A stretch of DNA of 64,000 bases from Pseudomonadota bacterium (GCA_963205295.1 CAUJIY010000096.1:62001-126000), one strand, 5' to 3'. Positions 49,988 through 55,654 are shown, numbered from the stretch's first letter. The notes: generated by a model not told the origin, from the letters alone. A program made the numbers and translations.

Positions 49988-50494
49988 ATGGCTCTCATCA
50001 AGCACGGTGAAGTGGTGGCCGATCGCTTCCTCGATGTCACCGGTGCCACGGCGATCCCGGCCAGGGGTGCCATCGTCGTCAGCCTGGAGCAGTGGCTCGC
50101 GAACCTCGACGTCCTGGTCGCACGCACCGATCCGCTCGGCATCCGCCTGAAGCGCGACCAGCACCCCGAGGTGGTGGCGGACGACCTCGATCACTTCGCC
50201 TTGATCGCACTCGAGGTCCCCGTCTTCAAGGATGGGCGCGCCTTCGGCTACGCGCGCCTGCTGCGTGAGCGCTGGGGCTTCCGGGGTGAACTACGCGCGG
50301 TCGGCGACGTGCTGCCTGAACAGGTTCCCTTCATGCAGCGCATCGGTTTCGACGCCTTCGAACTGCGCGGCTGGACACCGGCCGGGAGCGGCACACCAGC
50401 TGACCAGTTGCGCTGGCTCAGGCAGGCAGCGTCCGCGCCAGATCGGCAAGGAGCCGGCGGGCACGACCTGGAGCGGCCAGCGTACCCTGGTTGA
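49988..50494 (+). CDS. DUF934 family protein
   Basis: GIRLKRDQHPEVVADDLDHFALIALEVPVFKDGRAFGYARLLRERWGFRGELRAVGDVLPEQVPFMQRIGFDAFEL. Confidence 0.85.
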   Translation: MALIKHGEVVADRFLDVTGATAIPARGAIVVSLEQWLANLDVLVARTDPLGIRLKRDQHPEVVADDLDHFALIALEVPVFKDGRAFGYARLLRERWGFRGELRAVGDVLPEQVPFMQRIGFDAFELRGWTPAGSGTPADQLRWLRQAASAPDRQGAGGHDLERPAYPG

Positions 50495-50964
50495 ACTCGA
50501 GTTCGTTCCCGAGGTAACGCGCAGCCGCGAAACGCCGGCGCAGCGCGACCACCAACCCGTCCGATGTCCCGCGGTATGGGAAGTTGCGACGCACCACCCA
50601 GCTGACCCGGCCGGATGCCAGCGCCCCCTGCCAGGCACGGCACAGCTGCTGCTCGTCCGGTCGGGCGGGATCGTAGAGCAGGCCGAGATCGCCGTTCCGG
50701 CGCTCACCGTGCCACCACGGCGTGAAGGAGTGCACCGACAGGTGCAGCACCCGCTCGCCGCCGGCGATCCGGGCCGCAATCCGGTTTTCGACCAGCCCGC
50801 GGTAAGGATGGTAGTGGCGCGCGAGCAGCCGGGCCCGCGGCGTGCGCGCCGATGTCGTAACCCTCGTGCGAAGCCAGGCGTCCGCCGCAGCCCGCGAAGA
50901 GCCGCCGATATTCCGCCGGTATGGCATTGCCGCCGTGCTCGCAGGTCAGCAGCAGGCACGCCAC
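50418..50964 (-). pseudogene. N-formylglutamate amidohydrolase family gene, frameshifted and apparently internally deleted
   Basis: N-part in one frame (MACLLLTCEHGGNAIPAEYRRLFAGCGGRLASHEGYDIGA). C-part in another frame (RLLARHYHPYRGLVENRIAARIAGGERVLHLSVHSFTPWWHGERRNGDLGLLYDPARPDEQQLCRAWQ...RRNFPYRGTSDGLVVALRR...YLGNELEFNQ). Confidence 0.8.
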
Positions 50965-50979
50965 GGACCACTCTTCCGT

Positions 50980-52218
50980 TCAGCGTCCCGCCGGCGGCGC
51001 ATAGGGCTCGCCGGCGGCCAGGCAGTCGCAGAGCTGCCGGTAGACCCGCTCGAGGTCGGCTCGCGCAGGCTCGGCGGGCAGCGCGGTGACGATACGCGTC
51101 GCGAGTGTCCCGTGTCGCAGGTAGTGCTCGAGGGCACGCTCGGCGTCGCGGTCGAGCGCCCCGGCAGCAGCCGCCCGCTCCGCGAGCAGGCCCCACACCG
51201 CGCCGACCCGCGTGCCGGCGGAACGACAGCCGAGCAGCTCGAGATAGCGGCGGTCGTGGATCTCGGTCGCCTCGGCACCGGCCACCGTCGCCTCGAAATA
51301 GCGCGCCAGGTCGGATGTGCGCCAGGCATTGAGCATCGCAACGTCGCCGTGGTATCGCTCACAGAGCGAGCGCAGGGTGGCGGCCACCACGCGGGCGAAG
51401 GCGAGATCCATCCGCGGGCATTCCTGCACGTCGAGCACGCGGATCTCCAGCGCCATGCGCTCGAAGCGGGCGATCGCGCCGCGGGCATTGACCCATTCCC
51501 CGGCCAGCACGCCCTCGGGGTCGTGCGGCGCCAGGTCCGCGTAGATGCGCCCGAGGATCTCGCGTTGATACTGGGCGATGCCGGTGACGGGCTCCGGGAC
51601 CACCGCGCCGGTGACAGAAGGGATGCGCGCGCAGTTCTTGCGGTAAACGGCGAGGCGGTTGTCGGCGGTGCCGGTAAGGCGCGCGTCCATCACGGGCGAA
51701 CTGGCCGCAAGCCCCGGCAGCAGCGGCAGCATGAAGCGTGTCGCCGCGTGCAGCAGCGTGAACTCGGCGTCATCGGCGAATGGCAGGTTGAGGTGCATGC
51801 TCTGCAGGTTCGCCCAGCCGTGACCCCGGCAGGAGAAGATGCGGTCGAAGGCTGCGTAGATTTCGCGGTTCTCGTGCGGCCACAGGCGCAGTTCCACGTC
51901 CGGATCCATCCACGGGTGCATGCCCCCCGGCATGAGGCGCAGGCTGCGGCTGCCGAGTATGCCGTCGATGCGCACCACGTCCGCCTGGAACGCCGTGGAC
52001 GCGCCGTCGAGCGAGGCTGCCGGAGCCGCGAGCTTCAGCTCGACGACATGCAGGGCCAGCTCGTTGTTCCAGGCCAGCGGGCCGCTCAGGTATTCACCGG
52101 TCACCTCACCGGCCGCCTCGGCGAGCAACCAGTCCGCTGCGGGTGCGACGCCGAGCGTCGCGGCGTCCACCAGCATGTACTCGAGCTCGATGCCGAAGGC
52201 CTCGAACAGGCGCAGCAT
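50980..52218 (-). CDS. GCS2-type carboxylate-amine ligase (glutamate-cysteine ligase family 2)
   Basis: MLRLFEAFGIELEYMLVDAATLGVAP..., LALHVVELKLAAPA, LMPGGMHPWMDP, ANLQSMHLNLPFADDAEF, EIRVLDVQECPRMDLA. Confidence 0.82.
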   Translation of the reverse strand: MLRLFEAFGIELEYMLVDAATLGVAPAADWLLAEAAGEVTGEYLSGPLAWNNELALHVVELKLAAPAASLDGASTAFQADVVRIDGILGSRSLRLMPGGMHPWMDPDVELRLWPHENREIYAAFDRIFSCRGHGWANLQSMHLNLPFADDAEFTLLHAATRFMLPLLPGLAASSPVMDARLTGTADNRLAVYRKNCARIPSVTGAVVPEPVTGIAQYQREILGRIYADLAPHDPEGVLAGEWVNARGAIARFERMALEIRVLDVQECPRMDLAFARVVAATLRSLCERYHGDVAMLNAWRTSDLARYFEATVAGAEATEIHDRRYLELLGCRSAGTRVGAVWGLLAERAAAAGALDRDAERALEHYLRHGTLATRIVTALPAEPARADLERVYRQLCDCLAAGEPYAPPAGR

Positions 52219-52228
52219 GGCAGCCGGT

Positions 52229-53689
52229 TCAGCGCCCGTTGCCGCCGCGGGCGGCCTCGAGTCGGGCGCGGAACATCTGCATCACCGCGTCATAGAGTGC
52301 ATCACCGAGCACCTGGTCCTCGACACCGCGCTCCACGCTCGGGTTGTCGTTGACCTCGATGACGACGTAGCGACCGTCGACCTCCTTGATGTCGACGCCG
52401 TAGAAACCATCCCCGATGGCATTGGCCGCGCGCACGCCGAGGTCGACCACGCCCGGCGGGGCATCCTCGACGCGCAGCGTGTCCCAGCGCCCGCCCGTCA
52501 GGCGCCCGCCCGCCTGCTGCTTGTAGATCTGCCAGTGGCCACGGGCCATGTAGTAACGACAGACGTAGAGAACCCTGCGGTCGAGCACACCGACGCGCCA
52601 GTCGAAGGAAGTCGGCAGGTATTCCTGGGCGACGACCAGGGCACTTTTCTCGAGCATCTGCCTGAGCGCCGCATGCAGTGCGGGCCGGTCGGCCACCTTG
52701 AGCACACCCTGCGAGAAACTGCTGTCGGGCTGCTTCAGCACGCACGGCAGGCCGAGTTCGGCCTCCACGCGCTCGACATTGTTGCGGTGGACGATGACGG
52801 TCCGTGGTGTCGGGATGCCGAGGCGCGTCAGCAGTTCCGCGAGATACACCTTGTTGGCGCAGCGTACGATGGAGTCCGGGTCATCGACGACGATGAGACC
52901 CTCGTTGCGCGCCCGCGCCGCGAAACGATAGGTGTGGTGGTTGACGCGGGTGGTCTCGCGGATGAACAGGGCATCGAATTCGGCCAGCCGGCCGAAGTCA
53001 TCCGGCCCGATCACCTCGGCCTCGAAGCCGTTGGCCTCGGCCGCTTTCTCGAACCTGCGGATCGCAGGCGGGTCTGACGGCGGGGAGCGGTCGGCCGGGT
53101 TGACGAGGATGGCCAGCTCGAAGCGTACCGCTGGAGCCTTCGGCTCCGGCATGCGCCGGGCGAAGTGCTGCTCGATGGCGCCGCGCAGGAACTCGCGCTG
53201 CCCGGCCGGGATGTCCCCGACCGGGATGGGGCGCAGGCCCTGCAGGCGCCACTTCTGGCGGCGCAGGAAGCTCGCCCGGAGCAATGGCACCGGAAACACA
53301 TTGAACAGTGCCTGTGCCAGGCGGTGGAAGCGCGGCTCCGGGTGGTGTCCGAAGTAGACGCTGAGCTCCACGCGCTCCTCGGTGCAGTCAGCCAGTGCGC
53401 GCTGCATCACCTCCTCGAGATCTTCCGTCGGACGGATCAGCGCCGGGGTCTTGATGTCCTGCATCGTCAGCACGTCGGGCAACGGCCGGTGGCCGCGCGC
53501 CGCAGCCAGCAGCGACACGTAATAGCCGCTCGCCTGGTACGCGTAGGACTCGCACAGGTTGTAGATGCGCGGACGGCGCAACCCGCTGAAGCGCCCGTCC
53601 GTCAGGTACGCTGCCGCGGCGACGACCTCGGCCGAAGGAATGTGCAGCGGCCACTCGGCCGGCTCGTCGACGACGATCAGCGTGGCCAT
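52229..53689 (-). CDS. RimK-family ATP-grasp ligase with N-terminal RimK-like extension
   Basis: YNLCESYAYQASGYYVSLLAAARGHRPLPDV, LFIRETTRVNHHTYRFAARA, ANKVYLAELLTRLGIPTPRTVIV, VLKQPDSSFSQGV, GVDIKEVDGRYVVIEVNDNPSVERGVED. Confidence 0.92.
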   Translation of the reverse strand: MATLIVVDEPAEWPLHIPSAEVVAAAAYLTDGRFSGLRRPRIYNLCESYAYQASGYYVSLLAAARGHRPLPDVLTMQDIKTPALIRPTEDLEEVMQRALADCTEERVELSVYFGHHPEPRFHRLAQALFNVFPVPLLRASFLRRQKWRLQGLRPIPVGDIPAGQREFLRGAIEQHFARRMPEPKAPAVRFELAILVNPADRSPPSDPPAIRRFEKAAEANGFEAEVIGPDDFGRLAEFDALFIRETTRVNHHTYRFAARARNEGLIVVDDPDSIVRCANKVYLAELLTRLGIPTPRTVIVHRNNVERVEAELGLPCVLKQPDSSFSQGVLKVADRPALHAALRQMLEKSALVVAQEYLPTSFDWRVGVLDRRVLYVCRYYMARGHWQIYKQQAGGRLTGGRWDTLRVEDAPPGVVDLGVRAANAIGDGFYGVDIKEVDGRYVVIEVNDNPSVERGVEDQVLGDALYDAVMQMFRARLEAARGGNGR

Positions 53690-54426
53690 CGGCGGCGCCT
53701 CGGCACTTCGATCACGAGCAGGTTGGCATCATAGGTCAGGCTGCCGAGCAGCACGGCACCGATCAGCCGGTTGAGATCCACGGAGTAATAGCGCTGACCG
53801 CCGAGCGGATTCCACTCGTAGGGGTCGGCGACATCGACGAGACGCGTATCGCGATCATACCCCGACAGCACCACGAAGTGTCCGACCGGCTCGCCACCCA
53901 CGTCGTCCGGTGCACCCGTATCCGGGATCTCGCGCCGCGCCTGGTACAGGTACGTTGCCGACAGGCCGGTCATGATCGGGATACCGCGGCCGAGGAAGCG
54001 CCGGATCAGTGCCGGCCGCAGGTCCTCGAAGCGCAGCTTGCCGCCAAGCTCGAGGAAGCGCAGGTAGCCTGCGCTGGCGATCCGCAGCTTCGCGTCGTCC
54101 TTCGCCGCAGCCTGCGCCTGCATCCGGGCGGCGAGGTCCGGAACCGGCAGCAGCGCCCAGCTCGGGTCGAACAGGTGCAGGTTGTAGGTGAACAGCGTGA
54201 CCCGGTAGCCGCGCGCCAGCGCATGGTTGGCCAGGAACACATCGAGCGTGCCGCCCCCACCGCTGCGGAGCATGTCGACACCGCCGATGACGTCCTCGAG
54301 CTGGATGTCGTCGCCGAAGTAGCGATAGATACCGTGCAGGCAGGTGGGGCCGCAGGTGACCCCGTCGGGCTGGGCCGCGATCTGGAAACGCAGGCGCTCG
54401 TGCATCGCATCGGTCCGGGCTGCCAC
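53677..54426 (-). CDS. C39-like (papain-fold) peptidase
   Basis: QPDGVTCGPTCLHGIYRYFGDD, IPIMTGLSATYLY, GHFVVLSGYDRDTRLVDVADPY. Confidence 0.85.
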   Translation of the reverse strand: MAARTDAMHERLRFQIAAQPDGVTCGPTCLHGIYRYFGDDIQLEDVIGGVDMLRSGGGGTLDVFLANHALARGYRVTLFTYNLHLFDPSWALLPVPDLAARMQAQAAAKDDAKLRIASAGYLRFLELGGKLRFEDLRPALIRRFLGRGIPIMTGLSATYLYQARREIPDTGAPDDVGGEPVGHFVVLSGYDRDTRLVDVADPYEWNPLGGQRYYSVDLNRLIGAVLLGSLTYDANLLVIEVPRRRRWPR

Positions 54427-54499: not shown

Positions 54500-55417
54500 T
54501 CAGCCCGGGAACTCCGCCGCGCCGGCCAGGCTGCGGGACGGCTTGGCGAAACCCGTGTCGATCTGCCCGACGATGCGCTCTTCCTGCAGGTCCACCTTCG
54601 ACATCACACCGGTGAAAATGTTGGCTACCAGCACGTAACGCTGGTCGCGGCAGGTGCGGATCATCGCATAGCCGTACTCGTCCAGGGGCACGGTACGCAG
54701 GGACTGGCCTGCCTCGTCGATCAGGTCGATGAAGCTCCCGCGCAGCAGCAGCAGGGTACCATCGTCCAGGTAGGCGACACCGGTGGTCCACCGGCGCGTG
54801 TATTCCTTGCCGCCCGGGTAGGTCACCAGGTCCGGCAGCTGGCGCGCCTCCAGCACATCGAAACGCAGCACGCGCATGCCGAGGTCGGTGATGTAGGTGA
54901 TGAACCGGCCACCAGGATGCAGCGCCGCATGGGTCACGCCGTGAAAGCCGGTCATGGACGGTGCGGTCTCGTTGTCGTATTCGGTGACCACGGTCAGGTC
55001 GGCGGCGAGTCTGCGGATGCGCCCATGACCGACGACATCCGTTCCCTCCAGCAGGCGCATCGCGCCACGCTGGTAAGGCTTCTGGCCCTTGAGATACTCG
55101 CACAGGTAAACGCTGCCATCCCGCCCGAACACCGCGCTGCCCCAGGGACGGTCGCCGAAGTCATGCGCCGGCAATTGACGGCCATCACGGCCGACCCGTA
55201 CGACCGCCCGGGCAAACGGGTCGAAGGCCCACAGGGTCCCGTCCGGTGCAAAGCTCAGGTTGATGACCAGGTGGGTCGTGCCCGCGGTGTAGAGCGTTCC
55301 CTTCGGTACCATCCGGCAGTCGAACTGCAGGATGCGCCCCTCGCCCGCGTGGTCGTCGTGCGGATCGTTCAGGTACGTGCAGCCGAGGAAGATGTCCCCT
55401 GCTGCGAACGGCCTCAT
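54500..55417 (-). CDS. Beta-propeller/SMP-30-like protein of unknown function
   Basis: LSFAPDGTLWAFDPFARAVVRVGRDGR, GSAVFGRDGSVYLCEYLKGQKPYQRGAM, VTHAALHPGGRFITYITDLGMRVLRFD, YVLVANIFTGVMSKVDL. Confidence 0.7.
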   Translation of the reverse strand: MRPFAAGDIFLGCTYLNDPHDDHAGEGRILQFDCRMVPKGTLYTAGTTHLVINLSFAPDGTLWAFDPFARAVVRVGRDGRQLPAHDFGDRPWGSAVFGRDGSVYLCEYLKGQKPYQRGAMRLLEGTDVVGHGRIRRLAADLTVVTEYDNETAPSMTGFHGVTHAALHPGGRFITYITDLGMRVLRFDVLEARQLPDLVTYPGGKEYTRRWTTGVAYLDDGTLLLLRGSFIDLIDEAGQSLRTVPLDEYGYAMIRTCRDQRYVLVANIFTGVMSKVDLQEERIVGQIDTGFAKPSRSLAGAAEFPG

Positions 55418-55654
55418 GGTCGAAACCCTGGTCACGACGCTGGGCTCCCTGGCGCCGCCCGGCGGTCATCCGGGCGCCATCCGACGAGGCGATTTTACGG
55501 CTTGCCCTGAATGCCGGCGCCATGCCCGCCCCGGGATCCGCTGGTCGGTCAGGGTCGTGACGTATTACACATAATCTGGCAGGTGCTGTCGCTACGCTTG
55601 GCAGGCAATCGCTCACCGGCTGGAGCCGGAACGGAGCAGTCGGAGACTGTCTCG

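Follow-up and report, generated by a model that had tools for sequence, protein, structure and literature searches.

Conserved gene neighbourhoods of RLAN-RimK amidoligases (PF14401) were reportedly described by Iyer et al. in 2009, as they also are in the Pfam entry; the RLAN-ATP-grasp protein of those neighbourhoods is the same as that encoded by the second gene of the operon described here. The C-terminal half of this gene 2 product is a RimK-like ATP-grasp ligase and in this respect resembles RimK, LysX and MptN, but it scores below their cut-offs, carries an extra N-terminal RLAN domain and has other gene partners. Likewise, gene 3 shares with YbdK and other GCS2 ligases their fold, the GhExE signature and a profile match to the YbdK structure 1r8g (E = 2.6e-4), but it reaches 45.8 bits against a subfamily cut-off of 176 and belongs to a distinct clade tied to RLAN.

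In the N-acetylglutaminylglutamine amide (NAGGN) pathway (AsnO-Ngg-peptidase), Ngg acetylates one glutamine and joins the acetylated glutamine to a second (PMC8070244). That operon unites amino-acid ligation, amine capping and a peptidase, the combination proposed for the operon here, and the GNAT-RLAN-ATP-grasp fusions that we call architecture C below are, like Ngg, GNAT-ATP-grasp fusions; however, the operon studied here has neither AsnO nor GNAT, with GCS2 and FGase instead, and the type C ligases do not match the NAGGN synthetase family TIGR03103. In Pseudomonas, RimB-RimK and RloABC also couple a RimK-like ligase to a peptidase that acts on or opposes the ligase product (PMC12239564), but there the C39 cysteine peptidase has as its counterpart an aspartic protease of retropepsin type, and GCS2 and FGase are missing. 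Our literature search found no functional or biochemical study of the four-gene operon.

Layout of the operon

The operon lies in a 64,000-nucleotide stretch of DNA from a Pseudomonadota bacterium, which is the whole stretch that was analysed and is called the window hereafter. Four coding regions, all co-directional on the minus strand, follow one another closely; genes 1 and 2 overlap by 13 bp, and the next two junctions are gaps of 10 and 15 bp:

53677-54426, minus strand: gene 1, C39-like (papain-fold) cysteine peptidase, 249 amino acids as called (Pfam PF13529)
52229-53689, minus strand: gene 2, RLAN-RimK ATP-grasp ligase, 486 amino acids (PF14401 and PF08443)
50980-52218, minus strand: gene 3, GCS2-fold carboxylate-amine ligase, 412 amino acids (PF04107)
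50418-50964, minus strand: gene 4, broken FGase (N-formylglutamate amidohydrolase family), from split Pfam matches and DNA alignment to the related loci L002, L003 and L004

A Pfam profile search gave the order C39_2, RLAN plus RimK, GCS2 and FGase, upholding the family assignments that an earlier note had made for the four genes, including the HMM check that it had proposed for RimK and GCS2. Its description of four tightly joined minus-strand genes was right in position, strand and spacing, with the exception that gene 4 is a broken frame. Genes 1-3 retain every residue that is invariant among their orthologues and are 81-91% identical to their nearest relative.

Directly upstream of the operon, 54500-55435 on the minus strand encodes a 311-amino-acid protein with no match in Pfam, NCBIfam, PADLOC or PHROGs; we did not accept it as a member of the operon, its homologues lying near the operon only in the close relatives L002, L003 and L005, and once 1.4 kb off. 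At the other end, a DUF934 gene on the plus strand (49988-50494) is convergent with the FGase remnant and overlaps it by 77 bp. Its profile match stops 30 positions before the DUF934 C-terminus, so the junction between the two may be rearranged or misassembled. PADLOC models matched no protein of the locus, on which ground we ruled out an anti-phage defence system, and a link to phages was set aside, the phage matches being to generic RimK-like ATP-grasp proteins only.

A peptidase and two ligases with intact catalytic residues

Gene 1 scores 34 bits against Peptidase_C39_2 (PF13529, cut-off 24), and its Cys-His-Asp triad is intact: C25 and H183 are invariant, and D201 nearly so, in an alignment of 57 orthologues in which Q19 is also invariant. 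Because relatives begin there, the start is probably ATG 54405, not GTG 54426. Among PDB structures, its AlphaFold2 model (pLDDT 92.7) comes closest in fold to the C39 domains of PCAT1/ComA, to the endoisopeptidase PeiR and to phytochelatin synthase, and from these neighbours hydrolysis or transfer at an amide appears likely. It is not a double-glycine leader peptidase fused to an ABC transporter, since gene 1 encodes a stand-alone protein and no conserved transporter lies beside it.

RimK-type enzymes phosphorylate carboxylates other than those used by GCS2 enzymes and join them to an amine. In gene 2, an RLAN domain at residues 26-169 is followed by a pre-ATP-grasp region and a RimK-like ATP-grasp domain at about 279-454, with Pfam scores of 145.2 bits for RLAN (cut-off 25) and 32.6 bits for RimK ATP-grasp (cut-off 21). 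The ATP-grasp residues K280, K319, D433, E445, N447 and N449 are present and invariant across 46 aligned orthologues. Its best NCBIfam scores, 77 bits to LysX and 73 bits to rimK_fam, accompany a failure to reach the cut-off of any equivalog among the matches listed. We do not claim that the RLAN domain is a degenerate ATP-grasp half: the best matches of its model (pLDDT 90), to LysX/ArgX, are weak (E about 1e-3, TM-score 0.5, rmsd above 9), and hhalign of the domain against the ATP-grasp half of the same protein returned no match.

Gene 3 scores 76.5 bits against GCS2 (PF04107, cut-off 21), and its GhExE signature reads GIELE at residues 9-13, with E11 and E13 invariant in an alignment of 45 orthologues. 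It falls outside every named NCBIfam subfamily (YbdK, GshA-cyano and others), all scores lying far below cut-off. Catalysis by GCS2 enzymes proceeds by phosphorylation of a carboxylate, in most cases the glutamate gamma-carboxylate, which is then joined to an amine (PMC2588565); this clade would form gamma-glutamyl-type amides, with the gamma-carboxylate of glutamate most plausibly its substrate.

A broken FGase and its relatives

The earlier note had counted gene 4 as an amidohydrolase gene of the cluster, but the copy in the window is disrupted by a deletion and a frame change. Its Pfam FGase match (39 bits) covers the C-terminal half alone, its span of 547 bp is not divisible by three, and its N-terminal remnant (GTG at 50964) and FGase-matching remnant (50418-50927 frame) lie in different frames. 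DNA alignment to three close relatives (L002, L003 and L004) places about 137 missing bp at about 50834/50835. The lost stretch holds the RLLVDLNRS motif with the invariant residues R59, L60 and N65-S67 (L002 numbering), so the product should be a dead enzyme.

The operon FGase is intact in the genomes of L002, L003, L004 and L006 but absent beside the operon in the relatives L005 and L008. In Cesiribacter andamanensis (L054 10610-11359) the FGase likewise falls into two separate open stretches; loss or breakage of FGase may therefore be a recurrent event.

A second operon-type FGase, scoring 299 bits to the operon FGase model, is found in the host genome, a draft assembly in 172 contigs whose contamination is estimated at 2.3%. 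It lies near the end of contig C55 (L156 10997-12114; contig segment 12000-24113), directly downstream of the C-terminal part of a C39 gene truncated by the contig end; both are about 48% identical to their counterparts in the window, and no second RLAN or GCS2 gene was found in the host genome bin. The L005 genome likewise has an FGase on another contig, with 72.5% DNA identity to the C55 copy. The pattern, drawn from small numbers and a draft genome, fits displacement of the operon FGase by a stand-alone copy; C55 could belong to another organism in the bin.

The operon is conserved across distant phyla

The earlier note had proposed looking for the four-gene neighbourhood in other genomes, and it proved strongly conserved, in distant phyla. 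In the best 80 RLAN-RimK loci from the genome contigs searched, C39 lies beside the RimK gene in 76/80, GCS2 in 75/80 and FGase in 54/80. Of the 26 loci that lack FGase, 11 lie so near a contig end (about 150 bp or less) that they are no test of its presence, which leaves about 54 of 69 testable loci with FGase. Two loci, L017 and L032, are rearranged yet hold all four genes together; otherwise the order hardly varies, and the junctions are mostly overlaps or short gaps.

The operon is found in at least ten bacterial phyla, its carriers comprising Gammaproteobacteria, Rhodospirillaceae, Desulfobulbaceae/Desulfuromonadales, Myxococcota, Bdellovibrionales, Nitrospirota, Planctomycetota, Fibrobacterota, Parachlamydiales, Bacteroidota, Balneolaceae, Ignavibacteria, Leptospiraceae and Omnitrophota; because it recurs in phyla so distant, the arrangement exceeds chance. 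The pairwise distances measured for one of the four families track those of the others (r 0.67-0.83, against a permutation maximum of 0.18), as would be expected if the genes were inherited together, though species phylogeny accounts for part of the correlation. Among recurring neighbours there was no conserved target protein, no co-conserved transporter and no conserved thiol or metal gene. Within 700 bp of either end we found no small precursor ORF shared beyond two or three close relatives, and there is no room for one inside the operon; the absence of a conserved precursor ORF in the flanks favours a non-ribosomal product.

Two genome samples independent of the query link GCS2 to RLAN. Clade membership was set at 500 bits or more, and the clade is sharply separated because other GCS2-like matches score below 25 bits. 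Among 274 Gammaproteobacteria, RLAN occurs in 63 and the GCS2 clade in 14, all 14 of which also have RLAN; among 148 Bacteroidota, RLAN occurs in 17 and the GCS2 clade in 13, again all with RLAN (hypergeometric p = 3e-10 and 2e-15, respectively, both treating genomes as independent, which related genomes are not).

RLAN ligases have mutually exclusive partners

We read the surroundings of 40 RLAN loci from the Gammaproteobacteria sample. Eleven have the arrangement C39, RLAN-RimK, GCS2, FGase (architecture A), nine of them complete. The other 29 are of architecture B, in which a gene for a GNAT acetyltransferase fused to a C39-like peptidase (GNAT-C39-like, PF11814), or part of such a gene, lies nearby in 28/29, usually adjacent, and neither GCS2 nor FGase was found near any of the 29. 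The Bacteroidota RLAN loci comprise 13 of architecture A and four of architecture C, a stand-alone GNAT-RLAN-ATP-grasp fusion of about 650 amino acids (L178-L181); the 10 kb read at these four contained neither C39 nor GCS2. GNAT and GCS2 are thus mutually exclusive partners of the RLAN ligase in the loci examined; the families themselves were already known, and this exclusivity is new in this analysis.

The A and B ligases, labelled by HMM score with their gene partners scored independently, separate into two clades (support 0.91 and 1.0) when their tree is rooted at its midpoint. Of 106 ligase positions conserved in A, 80 are conserved in B too and none is swapped for another residue, and the ligation chemistry is therefore probably shared while the capping partner changes. 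By analogy with NAGGN synthesis, we infer that GNAT and GCS2/FGase may serve the same end by different means, the capping and uncapping of a short peptide at its amine; the exclusivity could instead reflect different pathways rather than equivalent steps.

A candidate pathway for a capped peptide

We propose, at a probability of roughly 45%, that the operon is a cytoplasmic non-ribosomal pathway for a short peptide with a capped amine end. In a first ATP-dependent step, GCS2 would build a gamma-glutamyl-type cap by linking an amino acid or amine to a side-chain carboxylate, for which glutamate with its gamma-carboxylate is the most plausible donor; RLAN-RimK would then, with ATP, activate a carboxylate and add one or more amino acids. 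The C39 thiol enzyme would cut or transfer at an amide of the product, for maturation, length control or turnover, and FGase, where intact, would take off the N-acyl cap, this last step in the host genome being either missing or carried out by the second FGase on another contig. In architectures B and C, GNAT would take the place of GCS2/FGase, probably with an N-acetyl cap, by analogy with NAGGN synthesis. Within this pathway, we infer the substrate, the order of steps, the cap chemistry and the direction of the peptidase.

In favour of this pathway, catalytic residues are conserved in the orthologues of all four families, FGase-family enzymes remove N-acyl groups from small molecules, and the folds matched by gene 1 include that of phytochelatin synthase, which acts on glutathione; against it, the carboxylate that a GCS2-fold enzyme attaches need not be that of free glutamate, and with FGase absent or broken in some members the removal of a cap is not obligatory. 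The earlier note had suggested a peptide-like metabolite or a peptide tag as the product; that class is still sensible, and the GNAT architectures narrow it towards amine capping.

More broadly, and more tentatively, RLAN ligases may define a widespread superfamily of pathways to capped peptides. One conserved ligase would be combined with either of two interchangeable, mutually exclusive modules, GNAT for an acetyl cap or GCS2 for a gamma-glutamyl-type cap (the latter usually with FGase for decapping), and the product would be a small peptide metabolite so far undescribed in bacteria. Because GNAT and GCS2/FGase exclude each other, a vague prediction of a peptide metabolite becomes a testable claim, one ligation chemistry with two alternative caps, and this architecture switch is likely to prove the most useful of the results. 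A coupled unit with two unrelated ATP-driven amide ligases has persisted in at least ten phyla, and culturable species of Pontibacter, Rufibacter and Desulfobulbus are among its carriers, yet we found no described product for it; it might serve to make a compatible solute, to make a thiol or redox peptide, or to modify a protein.

The last of these is the alternative that survives best, although we consider it unlikely. In such a cut-and-cap or tagging system, C39 would cleave a host protein, RLAN-RimK would extend the new C-terminus, GCS2 or GNAT would cap the N-terminus or a side chain, and FGase would reverse the cap. There are precedents in both ligase folds, as RimK glutamylates ribosomal protein S6 (PMC12239564) and the Pup ligase PafA arose from the GCS2 fold (PMC2588565), and C39-type peptidases have relatives that process proteins or peptides. 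The architecture-B GNAT also exceeds the threshold of RimI, an enzyme that acetylates protein N-termini (88.8 bits against a cut-off of 86.4), and this points towards a protein substrate. However, neither a tag-sized ORF in the flanks nor a neighbouring target protein is conserved, and FGase and YbdK-like enzymes act on small molecules.

A glutathione- or phytochelatin-like pathway for a thiol or metal-binding peptide, with GCS2 corresponding to GshA, RLAN-RimK to GshB and C39 to a phytochelatin-synthase-like transpeptidase, would follow the same step logic of GCS fold, ATP-grasp and papain-fold enzyme, but we regard it as improbable. The gene 1 model does match the phytochelatin synthase Alr0975 (E about 3e-4), but C39 domains match at least as well, and the recurring neighbours bring no conserved thiol or metal genes. 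The host has canonical GshA (513.7 bits) and GshB (223 bits) families, both on other contigs, which rules out the operon as its GshA/GshB glutathione pathway; glutathione is therefore an unlikely product.

Slightly less probable again is that the operon is decaying in the host genome and its product is no longer made. The broken FGase, and its absence beside the operon in L005 and L008, would be in keeping with decay, but genes 1-3 are intact at the identities given above, and contig C55 carries a second FGase, though, as noted, perhaps from another organism. A RiPP-type pathway, with leader cleavage by C39 and cyclization or extension of a ribosomal precursor by the ATP-grasp enzyme, is very improbable, for although C39 peptidases trim leader peptides, ATP-grasp enzymes build graspetides and the gene 1 model is closest to PCAT1/ComA peptidase domains, the operon has neither a conserved small ORF nor a co-conserved transporter.

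In two Planctomycetota (L046 5439-7199, and L047), a gene fusing GNAT to a carbon-nitrogen hydrolase (nitrilase) lies just upstream of the operon; we set aside this fusion and the DUF1501 gene beside the operon as partners, the cases being too few. In a single case, a Pseudomonas aeruginosa plasmid, RLAN-RimK has no GNAT-C39 or GCS2 nearby. Finally, a 9-kb plasmid-typed record of Legionella adelaidensis (NZ_LR134436.1, L159), which may be a misassembled chromosomal piece, opens with RLAN-RimK, GCS2 and FGase beside fur and bamE.
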